Shown: positions 11,715 through 55,835 of the stretch, piece by piece | Layout of the letters: the number at the start of each line of letters is the position of its first letter | Position numbering within the stretch: the stretch's first letter is position 1 | Assembly (NCBI RefSeq): GCF_002214545.1 | Contig: NZ_CP015105.1 | Location: 496,001-560,000, forward strand | DNA: 64,000 bases | Direction of reading: 5' to 3' | DNA from: Thermococcus thioreducens | GTDB taxonomy: Archaea; Methanobacteriota_B; Thermococci; Thermococcales; Thermococcaceae | The notes under the pieces: model-generated | What the model was told of the DNA's origin: nothing | The model's database searches: none | Seen by the model: only the letters and a program-made list of their open reading frames with translations | Program-made: the position numbers and the translations under genes

Positions 11715-11792
11715 TGGTGCGGTGGCCGGGATTTGAACCCGGGCCAGCGGCGTGGCAGGCCGCTGTCCTAGACCAGGCTAGACTACCACCGC
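11715..11792 (-). tRNA. tRNA-Gly (anticodon GCC)
   Basis: The minus strand gives acceptor GCGGTGG/CCACCGC, anticodon stem GCGGC/GCCGC with loop CTGCCAC (anticodon GCC), T loop GGTTCAAAT, discriminator A and encoded CCA. No intron is present. Confidence 0.95.
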
Positions 11793-11896
11793 AGTTCAGG
11801 CCCGTAGAATACTCACCTTCGGGCGCTTTATAAATCTTTCGGTGAGCTGAGACGGTTAAATTTATAAAGACTCCCTTAGAAGGGTTAGCGGGCAGT

Positions 11897-11974
11897 GCCC
11901 CGGTGGCCTAGTCTGGATAGGGCGCGAGGCTGCGGACCTCGAGGTCCGGGGTTCGAATCCCCGCCGGGGCGCCA
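11897..11974 (+). tRNA. tRNA-Arg (anticodon GCG)
   Basis: Acceptor GCCCCGG/CCGGGGC, anticodon stem CGAGG/CCTCG with loop CTGCGGA (anticodon GCG), T loop GGTTCGAAT, discriminator G and encoded CCA. It is followed by T-rich repeats (TTTTGGTTGT twice), unlike the other tRNAs here, and by an AT-rich gene pair. Confidence 0.95.
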
Positions 11975-12079: not shown

Positions 12080-12089
12080 GTTTAAATAT
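12080..12089 (+). promoter_or_regulatory. TATA box of AT-rich membrane/CBS-HEPN gene pair
   Basis: GTTTAAATAT lies about 48 bases before the first start codon, predicting a leader of about 20 bases. Confidence 0.6.
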
Positions 12090-12132
12090 TCTTTGAGCAT
12101 ACATACTATAACATCAATCTCGGGTGAGTAAA

Positions 12133-12591
12133 ATGAATAACAAAACCCTACTTGTTAGTTGGATAACTGCTAGCCTTGGAGGGATTTGGGGGACGTATGT
12201 AGGATACGACGCAGGATATGGATACCAGTTAGGCACCTTTCAGATAAATCAACTGGAAATATTCGCATATGGGGTCCTTGCTGCCATAATCTTTAGTGCC
12301 GTTGTTGCATCAGTATATAAGGGAGTAGTAGATAAACAATGTCCCAAACCTCTATCCACGCTTTTCATAGTGTTCAGCCTCATGGTACTAGTTAGCTATT
12401 ATGTAGGAGTTACACTAGGGCAAAATACTGGAAAAGGTGACGCGTTTTTCATGGAGTATACTGGACCATCAGGTAGCGATATTGTCATGGTCATAATATT
12501 CTCATTAGTTATAGCAATCGGAGCAATATACCTAGGTAGGCTAGCATCGAATGACACAAGCGCATTAGCAGGAGTTAAAAAGAAAACATAA
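12133..12591 (+). CDS. Four-helix membrane protein of unknown function
   Basis: The 152-residue protein has about four hydrophobic segments (around residues 8-28, 45-65, 78-98 and 115-135) and a basic tail ending GVKKKT. No family is recognised. ATG 12133 follows GGGTGA with five bases spacing. It is AT-rich relative to flanking core genes and lies just downstream of tRNA-Arg, a common integration site. It is followed after 38 bases by the CBS-HEPN gene, so the two probably form one transcription unit. Confidence 0.7.
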   Translation: MNNKTLLVSWITASLGGIWGTYVGYDAGYGYQLGTFQINQLEIFAYGVLAAIIFSAVVASVYKGVVDKQCPKPLSTLFIVFSLMVLVSYYVGVTLGQNTGKGDAFFMEYTGPSGSDIVMVIIFSLVIAIGAIYLGRLASNDTSALAGVKKKT

Positions 12592-12629
12592 AAGGTGTAT
12601 TGGTGATAAATGATTTAGGGTGATAACTT

Positions 12630-13442
12630 GTGAATGGCATAGCCTTCTTTCAAAACGTGTTACCTCCGAAACTTCAACCCTTAATAGATGCACTTACCGT
12701 AAGAATGATAATGACGCCAAAAGAGCATTTTGTTTATTATGAAGATTATCCTCCTGAAAAATTAGAAAATTGTGAGTATGATGTTTTACCTTGTAGGGAT
12801 CTAAAACGTTATTATGATACAAAAACTGGGAAGATAAGGTTAATTTTGGCAGAAAACGTTATCTCAGCTGATACGCGATTGTTTGACTTAATTGATTTGT
12901 TCAACGAGGAGCATACTGTCTATTTTGTTAAGGAAGGAAAGAGCATTGTGGGTCTTGTTCACTATTCTGACCTTAAGAAGCACCCTGTGAGAGTGTTGTT
13001 TTATCTAATGGTGGCTGAATTGGAGTCAAACCTTCGGAAAGTGCTGGAAACATATTATGGTACTAAACTTGATGATGCTATAAAAAAGCAAATAAAACCT
13101 GAGAAGCTCTCCAAGATAGAGGGTTACTTGGGTGAGGATCGCAAGAAAAATGAAAACCTGAGATATATTGACTATTTGTATCTTGAAGACCTTAGGGATA
13201 TTCTGTTAAAGGATATGGGGTTGTGGAGCCTAGTGAAATCTCATTCACGGTTTAGTAGCAAAAATAAATTTGAAAGTAATATTAATCCGTTGATTGATTT
13301 GAGAAATTGGGTGGCTCACCCTGTGAAAGAAGAATTGCCAAGAAAAGAACCTATTTATCTGGTCTTGGCCAAAATGAAAGACAGAGTTATGAGATTGAAT
13401 AGTGCTCTTTATAACGTGCTACAGGCTATGAAGGAAAATTAA
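12630..13442 (+). CDS. CBS-like plus HEPN-domain protein, candidate RNase
   Basis: The 270-residue protein has a CBS-like segment at about 70-118 (AENVISADTRLFDLIDLFNE, then YFVKEGKSIVGLVHYSDLKK). A helical C-terminal domain follows, holding DLRNWVAHP at residues 223-231. R225-x4-H230 is the active-site pattern of HEPN ribonucleases. The CBS unit could sense a nucleotide and gate the HEPN part, but that is inference. GTG 12630 follows GGTGAT. Codon use is AT-rich, unlike neighbours, suggesting transfer. The preceding membrane protein may be its partner. A non-catalytic HEPN helper is the alternative. Confidence 0.6.
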   Translation: MNGIAFFQNVLPPKLQPLIDALTVRMIMTPKEHFVYYEDYPPEKLENCEYDVLPCRDLKRYYDTKTGKIRLILAENVISADTRLFDLIDLFNEEHTVYFVKEGKSIVGLVHYSDLKKHPVRVLFYLMVAELESNLRKVLETYYGTKLDDAIKKQIKPEKLSKIEGYLGEDRKKNENLRYIDYLYLEDLRDILLKDMGLWSLVKSHSRFSSKNKFESNINPLIDLRNWVAHPVKEELPRKEPIYLVLAKMKDRVMRLNSALYNVLQAMKEN

Positions 13443-13453
13443 GGGACAGTAAA

Positions 13454-14290
13454 TCAAACCCTTTCCAACCCTGGGAACCACACCTTCTTTCCGGCATTCT
13501 CCTTCTCCTCGTCCCACTCGGCGAGTATCTTCACTGCCTCGCTGGCAACTAATGCTGCCTCCTTCTCCCCGGCCTTTCCGAACTCGTTGGTAACGCGGTT
13601 GGCGAAGACCGCGCAGACACAGCCGGCCCTCAGTCCGTATATGTTCGCGAGGGTGTAAAGGGTCGCCGCCTCCATCTCGAAGTTGGTGACGTTCGCCTGC
13701 CTCAGGTCGTCCATTATGTTCTTCGCGAAGCTCGGGAAGTAGCCCTTGAGTCCCGGTCTTCCCTGGCCGAGGTAGAAGCTGTCGGTTGAAGCGGTTATGC
13801 CGATGTGGTAGCGGACGCCCAAAGTTTCAGCCGCCTCGATTAACGCAAGCGTGACCTCAAGGTCTGCAACTGCTGGATATTCAACGCGGACGTACTGCTT
13901 TGAAGTCCCCTCAAGCCTCACCGCGGCTTTCGCTATTATCAGGTCTCCGATTTCCATCCCCGGCTGTATCGCGCCGGTGGAGCCGACGCGGATGAAAGTG
14001 TCGGCACCTATCGCCGCGAGCTCCTCTATGGCTATGGCAGTGGACGGCCCTCCGATTCCGGTGGACGTCACGCTTATCGGGACGCCCTTATACCTGCCTG
14101 TGTGTGTCCTGTATTCCCTGTGGAAAGCTATCTCCCTCGCCTCGTCCCAGAGGGAGCTTATCTTCGGCACCCTCTCAGGATCGCCGGGAAGTAAAACGTA
14201 CCTTGAAACGTCCCCCGGCTTGCAGGCGATGTGGTACTGGTAGCCCTCCTCTGTCTGGGGCCTCTCGGCGGAAACAAACTTCTCAACCAT
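13454..14290 (-). CDS. udp: Uridine phosphorylase
   Basis: The enzyme converts uridine and phosphate to uracil and ribose-1-phosphate for pyrimidine salvage, which fits the upp gene elsewhere in the window. The 278-residue protein has LLPGDPERVPKI (about 32-43), the phosphate-binding GSTGAIQPG, the S-x-G-x-GGPS motif (STGIGGPSTAIA) and the substrate segment NFEMEAATLY. ATG 14290 (MVEKFVSAERP) is preferred because AAGGTGG lies upstream and a TATA-like element near 14340 predicts initiation about 14315. An ATG at 14320 is the alternative. Confidence 0.9.
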   Translation of the reverse strand: MVEKFVSAERPQTEEGYQYHIACKPGDVSRYVLLPGDPERVPKISSLWDEAREIAFHREYRTHTGRYKGVPISVTSTGIGGPSTAIAIEELAAIGADTFIRVGSTGAIQPGMEIGDLIIAKAAVRLEGTSKQYVRVEYPAVADLEVTLALIEAAETLGVRYHIGITASTDSFYLGQGRPGLKGYFPSFAKNIMDDLRQANVTNFEMEAATLYTLANIYGLRAGCVCAVFANRVTNEFGKAGEKEAALVASEAVKILAEWDEEKENAGKKVWFPGLERV

Positions 14291-14359
14291 GGCAACCACC
14301 TTTTTATCCACTTGTGCCATAGATATCGCTCGTGGAAATAAAAAACCTTGGGTGGTACG

Positions 14360-16375: not shown

Positions 16376-16750
16376 ATGAACATTTGGAATGCCGTTGGAA
16401 AAATCCTTGAGCTTGGGGGAAAGAGGGTGAAGTTCGTAATTCTCTTTGGCTCCCAATCCAGAGGTGAGGCTCGAAAGGACAGTGACGTAGACCTGTGCGT
16501 TTACTACGAGGGAAGTCCCAAGGATGCATTTAAATTCCGGATGCTCGTCCTTGGAAGCCTTCCCGAGAATTATGACGTTCAGATTTTTCAGCTCCTGCCG
16601 GTTTATCTCAAGAAGGAGTGCCTCAAGGGTAAAGTCCTCTTCTGCAGAGACGAGACTTTTCTATACGACCTTGCCTACGAAACGCTCAAGGAGTGGGAGG
16701 ATTTCAGGAGATACTACTACGACTACCTTGGGCTGGAGGCGATAGAATGA
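16376..16750 (+). CDS. mntA: MntA-type nucleotidyltransferase antitoxin
   Basis: The 124-residue protein is a minimal nucleotidyltransferase with LFGSQSRGEARKDSDVDL: Gly25-Ser26, then Asp37 and Asp39 of the GS-x10-DxD motif. MntA proteins adenylylate a tyrosine of the partner HepT ribonuclease and thereby silence it (type VII toxin-antitoxin). Its stop overlaps the HepT start as ATGA, so the two are translationally coupled. The pair sits between the MEMO gene and mevalonate kinase, inside an otherwise conserved cluster. Confidence 0.9.
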   Translation: MNIWNAVGKILELGGKRVKFVILFGSQSRGEARKDSDVDLCVYYEGSPKDAFKFRMLVLGSLPENYDVQIFQLLPVYLKKECLKGKVLFCRDETFLYDLAYETLKEWEDFRRYYYDYLGLEAIE

Positions 16751-17169
16751 GGGTCGAGGTCATACGCTCCAAGATTGAAGGGATACTTGAGAGTCTCAGG
16801 CTTATTGAGGAAAACCTCCCGGATGATTTTGAGGACTTCGAATCGCTTGGTATAGTCAAGGACGGAATTTACAAGCGGGCTGAATTTGCGATTCAGAACG
16901 TCATTGACATATGTGCTGTAATAAACTCCGACCTGAGGATCACAATGCCGGAAAGGGAGGAGGACGTTTTTGAAGGGCTTGTGCGCGCCGGGATAATTCC
17001 TGAGGGGATGGCCCACAAGCTCAGGCTGATGAAGGGCTTTCGCAACATCCTTGTCCACAGATATGGGAGGATTAATGATAGACTGGCCTTTGAAGTCCTC
17101 CACGAGCATCTTAAAGACATTTACGAATTCATTGAGGTAATAGAGAATTTCTTGGAGGGTCAAGGATGA
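16747..17169 (+). CDS. hepT: HepT-type HEPN ribonuclease toxin (DUF86)
   Basis: The 140-residue all-helical protein carries the HEPN active site as [12 protein letters not shown]: Arg99-x4-His104-x-Tyr106, the complete Rx4HxY motif. In characterised pairs the Tyr is the target of MntA adenylylation. ATG 16747 overlaps the mntA stop (ATGA), and the hepT stop overlaps the mevalonate kinase start (ATGA at 17166), so mntA, hepT and mvk are read as a coupled string. All key residues are intact, so the toxin is predicted active. Confidence 0.9.
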
Positions 17170-19268: not shown

Positions 19269-19316
19269 CTTTTTATTCTTATTTTTTGTTCCACAAGTAT
19301 TAGTAGGGTGATACTT

Positions 19317-31360: not shown

Positions 31361-33733
31361 GTGAGGAAAATACTTGGTTGGATCTTTGTCGTACTATTGC
31401 TGGTAACGTTAGTACCGACTGAGGTGAAAGCCCAGGTGGTAGAAAAAGAACCTCTGTGGAGCCATAACGTTGATGGTTTCTTTACAGCAGTTTCTACTTC
31501 GGCAGATGGGAGCTACATTGTGGCAGGTTCCGCTTCACCAGATAACAAGATTTACTTCTTTAACATGGCCGGTGAGTTGTTGTGGAGTTACAATGTGGGT
31601 GACTGGGTATACGATGTTTCTGTCTCTTCAGACGGTTCTTACATTGTAGTGGGGTCTGGAGATAAGGTTTACTTTTTCAACAAAAATGGAGAACTATTAT
31701 GGGATTATGAGACTAAGGGCTTTGTTTGGAGTGTTTCTATGTCCCGTGATGGATCCTATATTGTCGTGGGCTCCGGTTGGAAAAGTGGGGCAGAAAGTTA
31801 TTATGGCAAAGTTTACTTTTTCAATCGGAATGGAGAACTGTTATGGAGTCACGAAACTCGTAGTGAAGCGTACAGTGTTTCCCTATCGGCGAATGGGAAT
31901 TACGTTGTAGTCGGCTCTTGGGATGATGTTTACTTCTTTAACCAGCAAGGTGAATTGCTGTGGAAGTACAAAACCAATGACAGGGTTTACAGTGTCTCCG
32001 TTTCAGCAAATGGTTCTTATGTTGCAGTGGGTCTCGAGTTCAGTAATGAAATTTACTTCTTTAACAGCGATGGGAAGTTATTGTGGAGTTACAAGGGAGA
32101 GAAGGTTCACAGTATAAAATATTCACTTCATAACGGGCTTTCAATGTCTTCTGATGGAAGATATATAGCAGTGATATTCCCGTTAGATAGCAAGGTTTAT
32201 CTTTTTGACCGGCAGGGTAAGTTATTATGGAGTTACGATGCCAGAGACTATATTTGGAGTGTTTATATCTCCGTAGACGAGAACTATGTAGCAATATCCT
32301 CTGACAAGGTGTATTTATTTAGTGAGAATGGTACCTTGCTGTGGGATACCAACACATCACCCCGGGGGTGGGTGGAAGGTGTTGTTCTTTCAGCGAACGG
32401 AAACTACACTGCAGTATGGGCATTCCTGAGGATTTACCTCATTAACAAGGATGGAGAACTGTTGTGGGATTACAAGATTGGCAACTATGTCTATAGCGCC
32501 TCTATTTCAAAGAACGGCTCTTACGTTGCAGTTGGCTCGGCGGATAACAAGATTTACTTCTTCAATCGGCAAGGTGAATTGCTGTGGAATTACGAGACCA
32601 GTAGTCGAGTATATAGCGTTTCTATTTCAGCAAACGGTTCCTACATTGCGGCAGGCTCAAAGGGCAATGTTTATTTTCTCAATAGCAGGGGAGAGTTATT
32701 GTGGAGCTATGAAACTGGAGGTCGGGTTAGGAGTGTCTCCATCTCCTCAGACGGACGTTATGTCATAGCGGGCTCAGATAATGGCAGAGTTTACTTCTTC
32801 AATCGAGATGGAGAGTTGTTGTGGAGTTACAAAGCCAATGGTCATATTTCGAGTGTTTCAATATCCGCCAACGGCTCGTATATTGGAGTGGGCTCTTATG
32901 ATCACTGGATCTACTTTTTCAACAGGGATGGAGAGCTATTGTGGAAATACCCAACTGGTTATCCCATCCTCAGCGTTTCTATATCTCCGGACGGAAATTA
33001 CACTGCAGCAGGTTCGTATAGTAATAGAGTTTACTTCCTCAACAAGACTGGAGAATTATTATGGAGTTACAAAACCGGCGGGGGAGTTTACAGTGTTTCT
33101 ATTTCCATGGATGGTTCTTACATTGTGGCAGGCTCCGGGGACAACAAAGTATATCTCTTTAACAGGGAGGGAGAGTTACTGTGGAGTTATGATACCGGCG
33201 ATGGTGTCTACAGTGTTTCCATGTCTGAAGACGGGAATTATGTTGCAGTAGGATCCTACTCAATGGTTTACTTCTTCTCCAGATCGCCATTAGTGTGGGA
33301 TTATTCACCGCCGCTTCAAGTTTATGCCGGTGGGGAGATTTCAATTCCAATAAAAATCCAGTACAACTTTTCCGCGAATTCAAAAGTGCTTGTTAAGATA
33401 CTACGATCCTTTGAAGTCTGGAGTACAGAAGAGGTCGTAAATGCAGGGCCTGGAGGGTTATCACTTATCGCTAAATTCACTGCTCCAGTAGATGCCGGGC
33501 AGTACACCTACAAGGTCCAAGTTTTTTACTTGGATAATGGCAAGTGGATTAAAGGAGACGAGAAGACTTTCACATTAAATGTTAAAAAACCGCCGGAAAC
33601 CCGAACTACTACAACAAGCACAACAGGTATCACTGAGACCCAGACAACAAGCACCACAGGTAGCGGCATCTGTGGACCAGCTTTCATGCTCTTTTTTATC
33701 ATGGTTCCACTTGTGAGAAGAAGAGAGAGATAA
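31361..33733 (+). CDS. CGPA-CTERM surface protein with PQQ/WD-like beta-propeller repeats
   Basis: The 790-residue protein has a signal peptide (MRKILGWIFVVLLLVTLV, cleavage likely after VKA). About fifteen repeats of roughly 40 residues follow, each with the pattern VYSVSIS-DGSYI-AGS-NKVYFFN-GELLWSY. They predict one or two beta-propellers (residues about 30-640). A beta-sandwich stalk (about 650-745), a Thr-rich stretch and a C-terminal GICGPAFMLFFIMVPLVRRR tripartite tail, the Thermococcales CGPA-CTERM anchor, complete it. GTG 31361 follows GGAGGG. The repeats are also near-identical in DNA, suggesting recent expansion. Ligand unknown. Confidence 0.85.
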   Translation: MRKILGWIFVVLLLVTLVPTEVKAQVVEKEPLWSHNVDGFFTAVSTSADGSYIVAGSASPDNKIYFFNMAGELLWSYNVGDWVYDVSVSSDGSYIVVGSGDKVYFFNKNGELLWDYETKGFVWSVSMSRDGSYIVVGSGWKSGAESYYGKVYFFNRNGELLWSHETRSEAYSVSLSANGNYVVVGSWDDVYFFNQQGELLWKYKTNDRVYSVSVSANGSYVAVGLEFSNEIYFFNSDGKLLWSYKGEKVHSIKYSLHNGLSMSSDGRYIAVIFPLDSKVYLFDRQGKLLWSYDARDYIWSVYISVDENYVAISSDKVYLFSENGTLLWDTNTSPRGWVEGVVLSANGNYTAVWAFLRIYLINKDGELLWDYKIGNYVYSASISKNGSYVAVGSADNKIYFFNRQGELLWNYETSSRVYSVSISANGSYIAAGSKGNVYFLNSRGELLWSYETGGRVRSVSISSDGRYVIAGSDNGRVYFFNRDGELLWSYKANGHISSVSISANGSYIGVGSYDHWIYFFNRDGELLWKYPTGYPILSVSISPDGNYTAAGSYSNRVYFLNKTGELLWSYKTGGGVYSVSISMDGSYIVAGSGDNKVYLFNREGELLWSYDTGDGVYSVSMSEDGNYVAVGSYSMVYFFSRSPLVWDYSPPLQVYAGGEISIPIKIQYNFSANSKVLVKILRSFEVWSTEEVVNAGPGGLSLIAKFTAPVDAGQYTYKVQVFYLDNGKWIKGDEKTFTLNVKKPPETRTTTTSTTGITETQTTSTTGSGICGPAFMLFFIMVPLVRRRER

Positions 33734-38182: not shown

Positions 38183-38548
38183 TTATTCCGGACTTTCGAG
38201 CTTTATCCTTTTGATTCCTACCTCCTCAAAGGCTTTGTCTGAGCTTATTATTGTCCCCCCACATTTTGCCGCGTGAACGGCATCGAAGGGATTGAGTCTG
38301 TGCTCCTTCATGTAGTATGCCGCCCGGAGGTAGTCCTCTTTTTCTTCCCCTATTACCGCCATGACCGCTGCCAAAAGTCTAACAGGGTCAAGGTTGAACT
38401 TCTTTGAGAGTATCAGTAGCTCAAGAAACGTTGCTTCTGAAGTTGTTATCTCGTCCATGTATCTTTCGTAGATTTTTCTGGCGTTTTCCTTAAGCCAGTC
38501 GGAGGGCTTTAAAAGGGCTAGAAAAAAGTCGGTGTCAGCGTAGACCAT
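38183..38548 (-). CDS. vapC: VapC-type PIN-domain ribonuclease toxin
   Basis: The 121-residue PIN protein has the acidic active-site residues in MVYADTDFFLALL (Asp5/Asp7), a Glu in TSEATFLELL (about 38-47), NPFDAVHAAKC (Asp near residue 90) and SSDKAFEEVG. VapC toxins cut RNA and are neutralised by the upstream partner. ATG 38548 is preferred (GGTGAGTGAA upstream) and overlaps the antitoxin stop region, so the pair is coupled. All key residues are present. Confidence 0.9.
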   Translation of the reverse strand: MVYADTDFFLALLKPSDWLKENARKIYERYMDEITTSEATFLELLILSKKFNLDPVRLLAAVMAVIGEEKEDYLRAAYYMKEHRLNPFDAVHAAKCGGTIISSDKAFEEVGIKRIKLESPE

Positions 38549-38549
38549 T

Positions 38550-38780
38550 TCACTCACCTGCGAGCTTTTCGGCCTCTTTTAGGATTTCCACCTTGATTTC
38601 CTCAATCGGGATGTCCGGAAGGTTTTTTCCAAGCTCTTCAAGCTCCTTTAAGGGGTCTTCTGGCTTGGGAACTATGAGTATGCCATCATCCACCCTGACG
38701 AGGTAAACCTCTTTTGGGAGATTCTTCCTCAGCTCCTTGGGAAGGTACAGTCTTCCCTTTGGGTCCACTTTTGCCAGCAT
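38550..38780 (-). CDS. vapB: VapB/AbrB-type antitoxin
   Basis: The 76-residue protein has an N-terminal SpoVT-AbrB swapped-hairpin DNA-binding domain (AKVDPKGRLYLPKELRKNLP, about 3-22, and VYLVRVDDGILIVPKP) and an acidic C-terminal helix that would occupy the toxin. ATG 38780 follows GGTGGGAAT. A TATA box at 38810 implies a short leader and possible autoregulation by the complex, as is usual for such pairs. Confidence 0.9.
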   Translation of the reverse strand: MLAKVDPKGRLYLPKELRKNLPKEVYLVRVDDGILIVPKPEDPLKELEELGKNLPDIPIEEIKVEILKEAEKLAGE

Positions 38781-54671: not shown

Positions 54672-55835
54672 TCACACCTTTGCCCAGTATTCCTTCTCCT
54701 CGACCATGACCCTTATCATCTCGTCCTCGTCCTTGAACATGGTTCTCCGTGAGGGGTTCTGCATGCCGTAGAACTCCATGAACGGGCTCGGCCTTCTGTC
54801 GAAGGGGTAGTAGAGGTATATCGCCGCCAGCGTTCTGTATGCCTCGGCCATCTCACTGATGACCCCCGCGGAGACGCCCTCAGCGTAGTGGTAGACCGCT
54901 ATGGCCTTGCTGACGTCGACAAGGTTGAAGTCCCTCTCGACGAGCTGGCGCCTCAGTATGTCGGTGGCCTGCTCTATGTCCTCTCTGTCGAGTTCCTCGA
55001 CTTCCTCACCGTCCAGAAGGTGCTTTATCCGGATGCGCTTTATTGAAGGGTCAGCGTTAACCTGGGCATCGTATTCAGCAACGACCCACCAGTCGTCCAG
55101 AGCGCCGGGGTCAAGGACTGTAAAGTGTTCACTGAGCTTGTTGTAGAATCCCCTGACCCGCTGGTAGTACTCCTCCTCGTGACCGGTCATCGGATAGCTG
55201 AGGTAAACGAGCGGCTTTTCTTCTTCCCTGAATATCAGGTCGAGAAAGACTTCGTAGGGGTGTCTTATTCCGAACTGGAGGATATAGCGGACCTCGATAC
55301 CTTCTTTCTTAAGCTCATGTATCAGGGTTTTAACGTGGTTTATTGCATCCTCACGCCACATGACTAGGGTGGTGAGCTTGATGTTCTCGGGATTCTCACC
55401 GAAGCGCTCGAACCACTCCGGGTCGTTGATGATACGCCTCCTTACGGACAGGACATCGTCCAGGACTATTATTACCCGGTTCGGCCTCAGAAGCTTCAGA
55501 TTGCTAGTTGTGAAGCCTATAACGCTCCCGCTTCCCCAGCGGAAGAGGCTCGGTGTTGAGACCAGGTGGAACTTACGGTCACTTTTATCTATTTCCTTTC
55601 TTATTCTATTGAAAGCCTCATCCCTTATCTCGTTCATCAAATCCTGGTGGCTTATGGCAAAGTCAAGGACGTTCTTTCGGGTTATCTTGACGCCCAGTTC
55701 CTTTCCGACCTCCCTGATGTAGTCGAAGACGTGGTAGTAGGCGTAGCTCTCTTCGTCGGCGAGCTTTAGTGCCTCGGTTATGTACTCGTCGCGCCCGTTG
55801 AGCGGCGGCCCGGTTAGGAGTATGACCTCGTTCAT
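54672..55835 (-). CDS. P-loop kinase-like protein fused to deoxyribosyltransferase-like domain
   Basis: The 387-residue protein starts with a nucleotide-kinase-like fold: LLTGPPLNGRDEYITEALKL (about 5-24), where the Walker A lysine is replaced by Arg in GPPLNGRDE, and IIVLDDVLSVRRRI near 125. From about residue 205 a second domain begins LVYLSYPMTGHEEEYYQRVR, resembling nucleoside 2-deoxyribosyltransferase folds (VYLAGP-type), and ends with conserved AVYHYAEGVSAGVISEMAEA. The function is unknown. ATG 55835 follows GGGGTGAT; it is divergent from psmB. Confidence 0.65.
   Translation of the reverse strand: MNEVILLTGPPLNGRDEYITEALKLADEESYAYYHVFDYIREVGKELGVKITRKNVLDFAISHQDLMNEIRDEAFNRIRKEIDKSDRKFHLVSTPSLFRWGSGSVIGFTTSNLKLLRPNRVIIVLDDVLSVRRRIINDPEWFERFGENPENIKLTTLVMWREDAINHVKTLIHELKKEGIEVRYILQFGIRHPYEVFLDLIFREEEKPLVYLSYPMTGHEEEYYQRVRGFYNKLSEHFTVLDPGALDDWWVVAEYDAQVNADPSIKRIRIKHLLDGEEVEELDREDIEQATDILRRQLVERDFNLVDVSKAIAVYHYAEGVSAGVISEMAEAYRTLAAIYLYYPFDRRPSPFMEFYGMQNPSRRTMFKDEDEMIRVMVEEKEYWAKV

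Follow-up and report, generated by a model that had tools for sequence, protein, structure and literature searches.

Fusions of CBS and HEPN domains have been known since Anantharaman et al. 2013, in the accessible text of which a nucleotide-regulated decay of RNA is proposed for them and Ex3[KR] and Rx4H are given as the two active-site motifs of HEPN domains (PMC3710099). One such fusion, DS-11 (DefensePredictor, 2026), is a validated one-protein anti-phage system that protects E. coli, with the protection abolished both by Y157A, a change at the adenine contact of the CBS domain, and by mutants of the HEPN catalytic site (PMC13092281). The accessible text presents it as the first defence system containing a CBS domain to have been characterised, its adenine-type ligand being unknown, and has three other DefensePredictor systems reach the Halobacteria, with DS-11 not named among them there (PMC13092281). 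A literature search on CBS-HEPN and DS-11, which covered mostly open-access main text, returned no report of an archaeal CBS-HEPN protein. The preliminary description of the DNA considered here had regarded the pairing of the two domains as its own inference; it is, however, already published (PMC3710099) and has been validated in the form of DS-11 (PMC13092281).

The window, a stretch of 64,000 nucleotides from the archaeon Thermococcus thioreducens, belongs to a genome of 2.07 Mb in a single contig that holds one CBS-HEPN copy. This gene (12630..13442, + strand) is intact, starts with GTG and encodes 270 aa, with a ribosome-binding site GGGTGAT read from the sequence at 12618..12624 (+). It lies 38 bases behind a gene on the same strand (12133..12591, +) that encodes a membrane protein of 152 aa with three clear hydrophobic segments; the start of the latter is the ATG at 12133, the GTG at 12124 falling within its GGTGA ribosome-binding site. 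A TATA-box-like sequence, TTTAAATA (12081..12088, +), lies 5' of the gene pair and would be an archaeal promoter, and in the window the two genes are probably co-transcribed. They are the whole content of a slot of 1479 bases that runs from a divergent tRNA-Gly/tRNA-Arg pair, of which tRNA-Arg(GCG) at 11897..11974 (+) forms the flank, to a convergent uridine-phosphorylase-like (udp-like) gene (13454..14320, - strand). Both reading frames lie where they had been placed before, and the AT-richness then ascribed to the pair is borne out, with a GC content of 0.41 for the membrane gene and 0.36 for the CBS-HEPN gene against 0.52 for the window, and GC3 values of 0.34 and 0.37, where two genes nearby have 0.78 and 0.73.

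The immediate neighbours of the CBS-HEPN gene look like housekeeping genes and not like a defence island. Three kb away, with housekeeping-type genes between, the window carries a HepT-MntA type VII toxin-antitoxin pair (16376-17169), both proteins of which exceed their NCBIfam cut-offs. Elsewhere in the window there are an AT-rich gene for a 790-aa beta-propeller protein (31361-33733), an ORF with a PIN domain (38186-38557) and further AT-rich ORFs at 19308, 21108, 21935, 26893, 27735 and 36670 that have no Pfam match.

The protein divides into a diverged CBS pair at residues of about 25-118 (12702..12983, +), recognised by a model match, a Pfam scan of the half and the family profile, and a helical, HEPN-like half at residues 119-270 (12984..13439, +), for which there are a sub-threshold match to PF18735 and a structural match to 2hsb. 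Scanned whole against Pfam, it scores 18.6 bits for CBS (cut-off 24) and 18.6 bits for HEPN_RiboL-PSP (cut-off 28.4), both sub-threshold, and when the halves are scanned separately the values are 19.2 bits for CBS and 20.6 bits, with an E of 4.6e-4, for HEPN_RiboL-PSP (PF18735). Thus the HMM search called for earlier finds CBS and HEPN in the expected order and place, although all HMM scores of the window protein fall under the curated cut-offs. The relative P0005 exceeds the Pfam cut-off for CBS (29.4 bits against 24), and columns 10-117 of the family profile (A5) align with the CBS pair in the structure of an IMP dehydrogenase, 2cu0, at an E of 1.9e-5; phmmer of the window protein alone against solved structures gave no match.

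The two HEPN active-site motifs are present in the C-terminal half as E132-x3-R136 (13023..13037, +), the Ex3[KR] motif seen in the alignment, and R225-N-W-V-A-H230 (13302..13319, +), the Rx4H motif seen in the sequence and the alignment, with R225 and H230 at exactly the residues named in the preliminary description. The Rx4H motif by itself is weak evidence because chance often produces it: when the C-terminal half (159 residues) was shuffled 20,000 times, R-x4-H arose in 17% of the shuffles and R-[NDH]-x3-H in 2.5%. It is conservation across relatives that convinces. In an alignment of 19 archaeal sequences the most strongly conserved of the columns that hold 15 letters or more include D114 (19/19), E132 (19/19), R225 (18/18) and H230 (17/18), and R136 is kept in 17/19, the conservation being somewhat inflated as five of the 19 sequences came from a profile that contained the motifs. 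D114 corresponds to the ribose-binding Asp of the CBS GxxTxxD motif. The sole relative without H230 is a Halorhabdus protein, the reading frame of which stops at an IS630-like element. Placement of the Methanofastidiosia Rx4H depends on the alignment, MAFFT having misplaced it in A4 and A6, which are small, with the motif in register in A1, A5 and the 19-row alignment. The earlier picture of a CBS-like segment joined to a helical domain with Rx4H is upheld by this conservation, including that of R225 and H230 on which it had staked itself, and the window protein is, as judged from its sequence, a well supported candidate for a CBS-HEPN RNase.

Structure prediction speaks in the same direction with lower confidence. 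An AlphaFold2 model was built from a three-row alignment and has a mean pLDDT of 64 and a pTM of 0.51. With VIA-align its residues 25-117 match CBS pairs, several of which were solved with AMP, ATP or Ap4A, among them 7msu (Mg-ATP, Z 7.9), 3hf7 (AMP, Z 7.7) and AcuB, 9s4y (Ap4A, Z 6.4). For residues 83-268 HEPN proteins rank first, the top match being 2hsb (Z 9.3, rmsd 2.7, 109 aligned), followed by Csm6' 8pe3 (Z 8.0) and HepT toxins (Z 7.4-7.9), among them 7ae9, 6m6u and 7bxo (Z 7.6-7.9), values that helical bundles may reach by chance and that were obtained with a model of pLDDT 64. Foldseek with the model returned nothing at E <= 0.001. As to the HEPN four-helix bundle expected earlier, the helical half of the full model best matches HEPN proteins, at low confidence, whereas the HEPN half modelled alone from its single sequence (pLDDT 54) had no HEPN protein among its 50 best rows; a HEPN fold of the C-terminal half has the support of one of the two models and is not proven. 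Among the CBS matches are also SriC and SriD (PDB 9zni, 9znf), CBS proteins found on the Methanosarcina ribosome, and they bring to mind that the ribosome can be a direct target of archaeal CBS proteins.

Relatives of the protein are sparse and scattered. With the window protein (P0001) tblastn found them in 4/101 genomes, namely its own, two of Thermococcus and one of Methanofastidiosia, the closest among named relatives at the locus being that of a Thermococcus MAG; a scan of genome contigs gave just two MAG contigs, apparently those of G025 and G069, which were already among these. A haloarchaeal plasmid set was assembled by tblastn with P0001 and the haloarchaeal P0007; P0007 has matches in 10 of 72,556 plasmid records, all of them haloarchaeal, and P0001 matches a Haloarcula pelagica plasmid at an E of 0.07. 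A profile search added five further places in three archaeal genomes (G304, G333, G251). The matches to profile A1 in a search of the phylum (21/115 genomes) and to profile A5 (95/396 genomes) are mostly to CBS alone, and the set of relatives omits several A5 matches to HEPN alone (G068, G357, G205, G077, G067, G072 and G065). In all collections searched the relatives are archaeal, which is not evidence of their absence from bacteria since bacterial genomes lay outside the profile search. Compared profile against profile, the Thermococcus/Methanofastidiosia set and the haloarchaeal set match over both CBS and HEPN with a probability of 96 and an E of 3e-9. At the level of sequence, then, the domain order, the conserved motifs, the homology of the family and its patchy occurrence are apparent, and the proteins of Thermococcus, Methanofastidiosia and haloarchaeal plasmids, together with fusions to a methyltransferase-like segment, appear to make up a new archaeal CBS-HEPN family. 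The fusions are found in Haladaptatus (L045 4077-5549) and Natrinema thermotolerans (L052 5287-6702), where the methyltransferase-like segment stands N-terminal to CBS-HEPN; it matches Methyltransf_25 in one protein at a sub-threshold 20.6 bits and was likened by eye in the other. Beside the Haladaptatus fusion (L045) lie a UvrD-type helicase and an 1144-aa protein without Pfam or PADLOC match. A second CBS-HEPN copy in G251 (L117) looks as if it has been split by inserted transposase-like genes.

A viral or phage origin of the gene was considered and set aside, with no relative found in 50,697 phage records or in four scans of viral contigs, although this absence is weak, the pattern-based scans being insensitive to a family so diverged.

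The place next to the tRNA was compared in 31 loci (30 and the locus L002), the slot being taken to run from udp to the tRNA pair. Its content is variable: CBS-HEPN occupies it in 2/31, these being the window and a decayed copy in G050 (L002), an ORF of 318-390 aa adjoins udp in 17/31, an ORF of 199 aa is present in 1/31 and other tRNAs in 1/31, with the remaining 10/31 bare over 201-532 bases. In the G050 copy the frame is interrupted by numerous stops and the Rx4H stretch is gone. In the MAG G025 CBS-HEPN directly follows tRNA-Arg, the contig ending within the gene, and over 133 codons the comparison with the window gene gives a pN of 0.17 and a pS of 0.79 (saturated); on these sequences the overlap of the two copies is under purifying selection. 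The preliminary description had placed the gene pair directly after tRNA-Arg, which holds, as it begins 158 bases beyond the end of that tRNA on the same strand, and had taken the tRNA for a usual integration point, which finds no support. As an attachment site tRNA-Arg was rejected: among exact k-mers of 11-18 bases of the tRNA in the window there is no att-like direct repeat, the only repeats of at least 11 bases being in another tRNA gene and an 11-mer of the anticodon region that recurs at 55287, and there is no integrase in the slot. Across Thermococcus the content of the slot just varies. Sporadic occurrence in the same slot, with decay, is what accessory or defence genes usually show, and vertical presence with repeated loss fits the pattern as well as transfer does. 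The divergent tRNA-Gly/tRNA-Arg pair itself (11715-11974 in the window; loci L054-L083 and L002) occurs in both orientations among Thermococcus, as if invertible.

The loci of the relatives have a suggestive association with defence. In a raw count, genes of defence type are nearby in five of the 19 loci outside the window: HsdM and HsdS adjoin CBS-HEPN in G333, a Mrr-type endonuclease lies one small gene away in Halorientalis with another restriction gene further on, an annotated restriction endonuclease is 2 kb off in Natrinema thermotolerans, the UvrD-type helicase just upstream in Haladaptatus resembles GajB, and in G251 an AriA/AbiLi-like ATPase lies about 1 kb downstream. The family scans behind these assignments covered ten proteins and then nine neighbours or members. 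In the haloarchaeal plasmids a homologous divergent ORF of 115-127 aa lies directly upstream in 8/8 copies of the main group (L009 4309-4665, L010 4293-4649, L011 4341-4688, L012 4285-4641, L046 3521-3904, L047 3524-3880, L048 3533-3889 and L049 3530-3886), that of Halorhabdus being the most diverged of the eight. Two examples were scanned and had no family match; the small ORF is possibly a regulator or antitoxin of the haloarchaeal CBS-HEPN protein.

The reading that is preferred, at a probability of about 0.62, is that the window protein is a single-protein, nucleotide-gated CBS-HEPN ribonuclease, most likely in defence against viruses or mobile elements by analogy with bacterial DS-11. Its CBS pair, probably dimeric, would bind an adenine-type nucleotide (ATP, AMP, Ap4A or an alarmone akin to these), binding would rearrange the C-terminal HEPN dimer, and R225/H230 with E132/R136 would then cut RNA and so stop growth or virus replication. 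Dimerisation, ligand, RNase activity and defence role we infer alike. A nucleotide-gated HEPN RNase in defence, which had first been proposed alongside a role in stress, is probable, whereas the membrane sensor proposed along with it has fallen away. That the membrane gene belongs to a two-gene toxin module, as sensor or antitoxin to a HEPN toxin, might be thought from the shared strand, the gap of 38 bases, the common low GC and the single TATA-like box upstream of both, yet in the Thermococcus MAG (L003/L050) CBS-HEPN comes directly after the tRNA without a membrane gene, as is also true of the decayed copy in L002. With the gene thus absent at the slot from the two other copies in Thermococcus, no match of its product among 72,556 records of plasmids or 50,697 of phages, and a single weak match in 100 other genomes (35% across 65 residues, in a frame of 654 residues), such a module is very improbable. 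The membrane gene is discarded as a conserved partner; most likely it stands beside CBS-HEPN by accident and is no part of the system.

CBS pairs are general energy sensors, and the Thermococcus gene stands alone among genes of housekeeping appearance, so the protein could also be a cellular RNase without a specific antiviral role, the CBS pair of which would read AMP/ATP or Ap4A in heat or starvation while the HEPN domain trims RNA and slows growth. A regulation of RNA stability by nucleotides has indeed been proposed for CBS-HEPN proteins in the accessible text of the 2013 survey (PMC3710099). A housekeeping regulator should however be common, yet relatives occur in 4/101 genomes, one copy has decayed and many relatives are on plasmids or beside restriction genes, which leaves this explanation unlikely. 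It is improbable, too, that the HEPN-like half serves to bind RNA or protein and cuts nothing. HEPN domains devoid of RNase activity do exist according to the accessible part of the same survey (PMC3710099), and the fold evidence here is weak, but Rx4H and Ex3R are among the most conserved positions of the family, whereas in HEPN families fused to nucleotidyltransferases and likely non-catalytic the motif is described there as lost (PMC3710099).

Extended beyond the window, the preferred reading of a nucleotide-gated defence RNase would mean that the archaea have a mobile family of their own, made up of antiviral HEPN RNases gated by CBS domains, which corresponds to DS-11 of bacteria and takes in at least Thermococcus, Methanofastidiosia, haloarchaeal plasmids and other archaea, with a methyltransferase-like gain and possibly a small-gene regulator or antitoxin in the haloarchaea; this is put forward tentatively, at somewhat less than even odds. 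If true, DS-11 would respond to an adenine-type signal of infection that is ancient and common to bacteria and archaea, and CBS-gated RNases would seem to belong to archaeal immunity, a point absent from the accessible text of the two works (PMC3710099, PMC13092281). A presumably heat-stable archaeal relative, along with diverged members that mark D114, E132, R225 and H230 as kept positions, would make the question of the DS-11 ligand testable by crystallography and binding assays.

Among the systems already described, the CBS-HEPN and CBS-HD-HEPN proteins of Anantharaman et al. 2013 have the same pairing of domains and the same logic of nucleotide sensing leading to RNA cleavage, but the examples given in the accessible text are bacterial (Pelobacter; alr3009 with HD) and no archaeal family is named there (PMC3710099). 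RiboL-PSP-HEPN (PF18735) is, of the HEPN families in Pfam, the one that fits the C-terminal half best, although 20.6 bits is under the gathering value of 28.4 and the window protein has no L-PSP domain. The CRISPR ancillary RNases Csm6/Csx1 likewise join a nucleotide sensor to a HEPN RNase, and Csm6' is the second structural match, but the sensor in the window protein is a CBS pair and not CARF, phmmer against structures gave no sequence match to them, and on inspection no CRISPR gene was recognised among the immediate neighbours. With HepT-MntA the protein shares a HEPN RNase with the same type of motif; it has no adjacent MNT gene, however, as the MntA at 16376 is paired with a HepT of its own, and a profile comparison of CBS-HEPN with the HepT of the window aligned only 18 columns around the motif at a probability of 0.3.

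The closest likeness is to DS-11. Against the NCBIfam model DS11_antiphage (NF053863) the window protein scores 27.1 bits with an E of 2e-6 over residues 73-159, and because the cut-off is 260 it is not filed as DS-11; nor can this score by itself place the protein there, as ordinary CBS proteins match NF053863 in 21/21 genomes at up to 60 bits, with no specificity. Four haloarchaeal proteins also match the model, one of which, P0007, covers its positions 81-284; the Haladaptatus protein P0013 aligns residues 244-463 to 79-299 of 305 (E 6e-7). By rough model coordinates (72-117 to 143-190) the position of Y157 in DS-11 would fall near residues 84-86 of the window protein, F85 included. The window protein is about 35 residues shorter than the model and comes from an archaeal hyperthermophile, and it is DS-11 for which anti-phage activity is known. 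Both are single proteins in which a CBS pair is followed by a C-terminal HEPN domain with its motif near the C-terminus, and the archaeal relatives align over most of the NF053863 model. The window protein is thus best described as DS-11-like and not as DS-11, and it probably works as DS-11 does.
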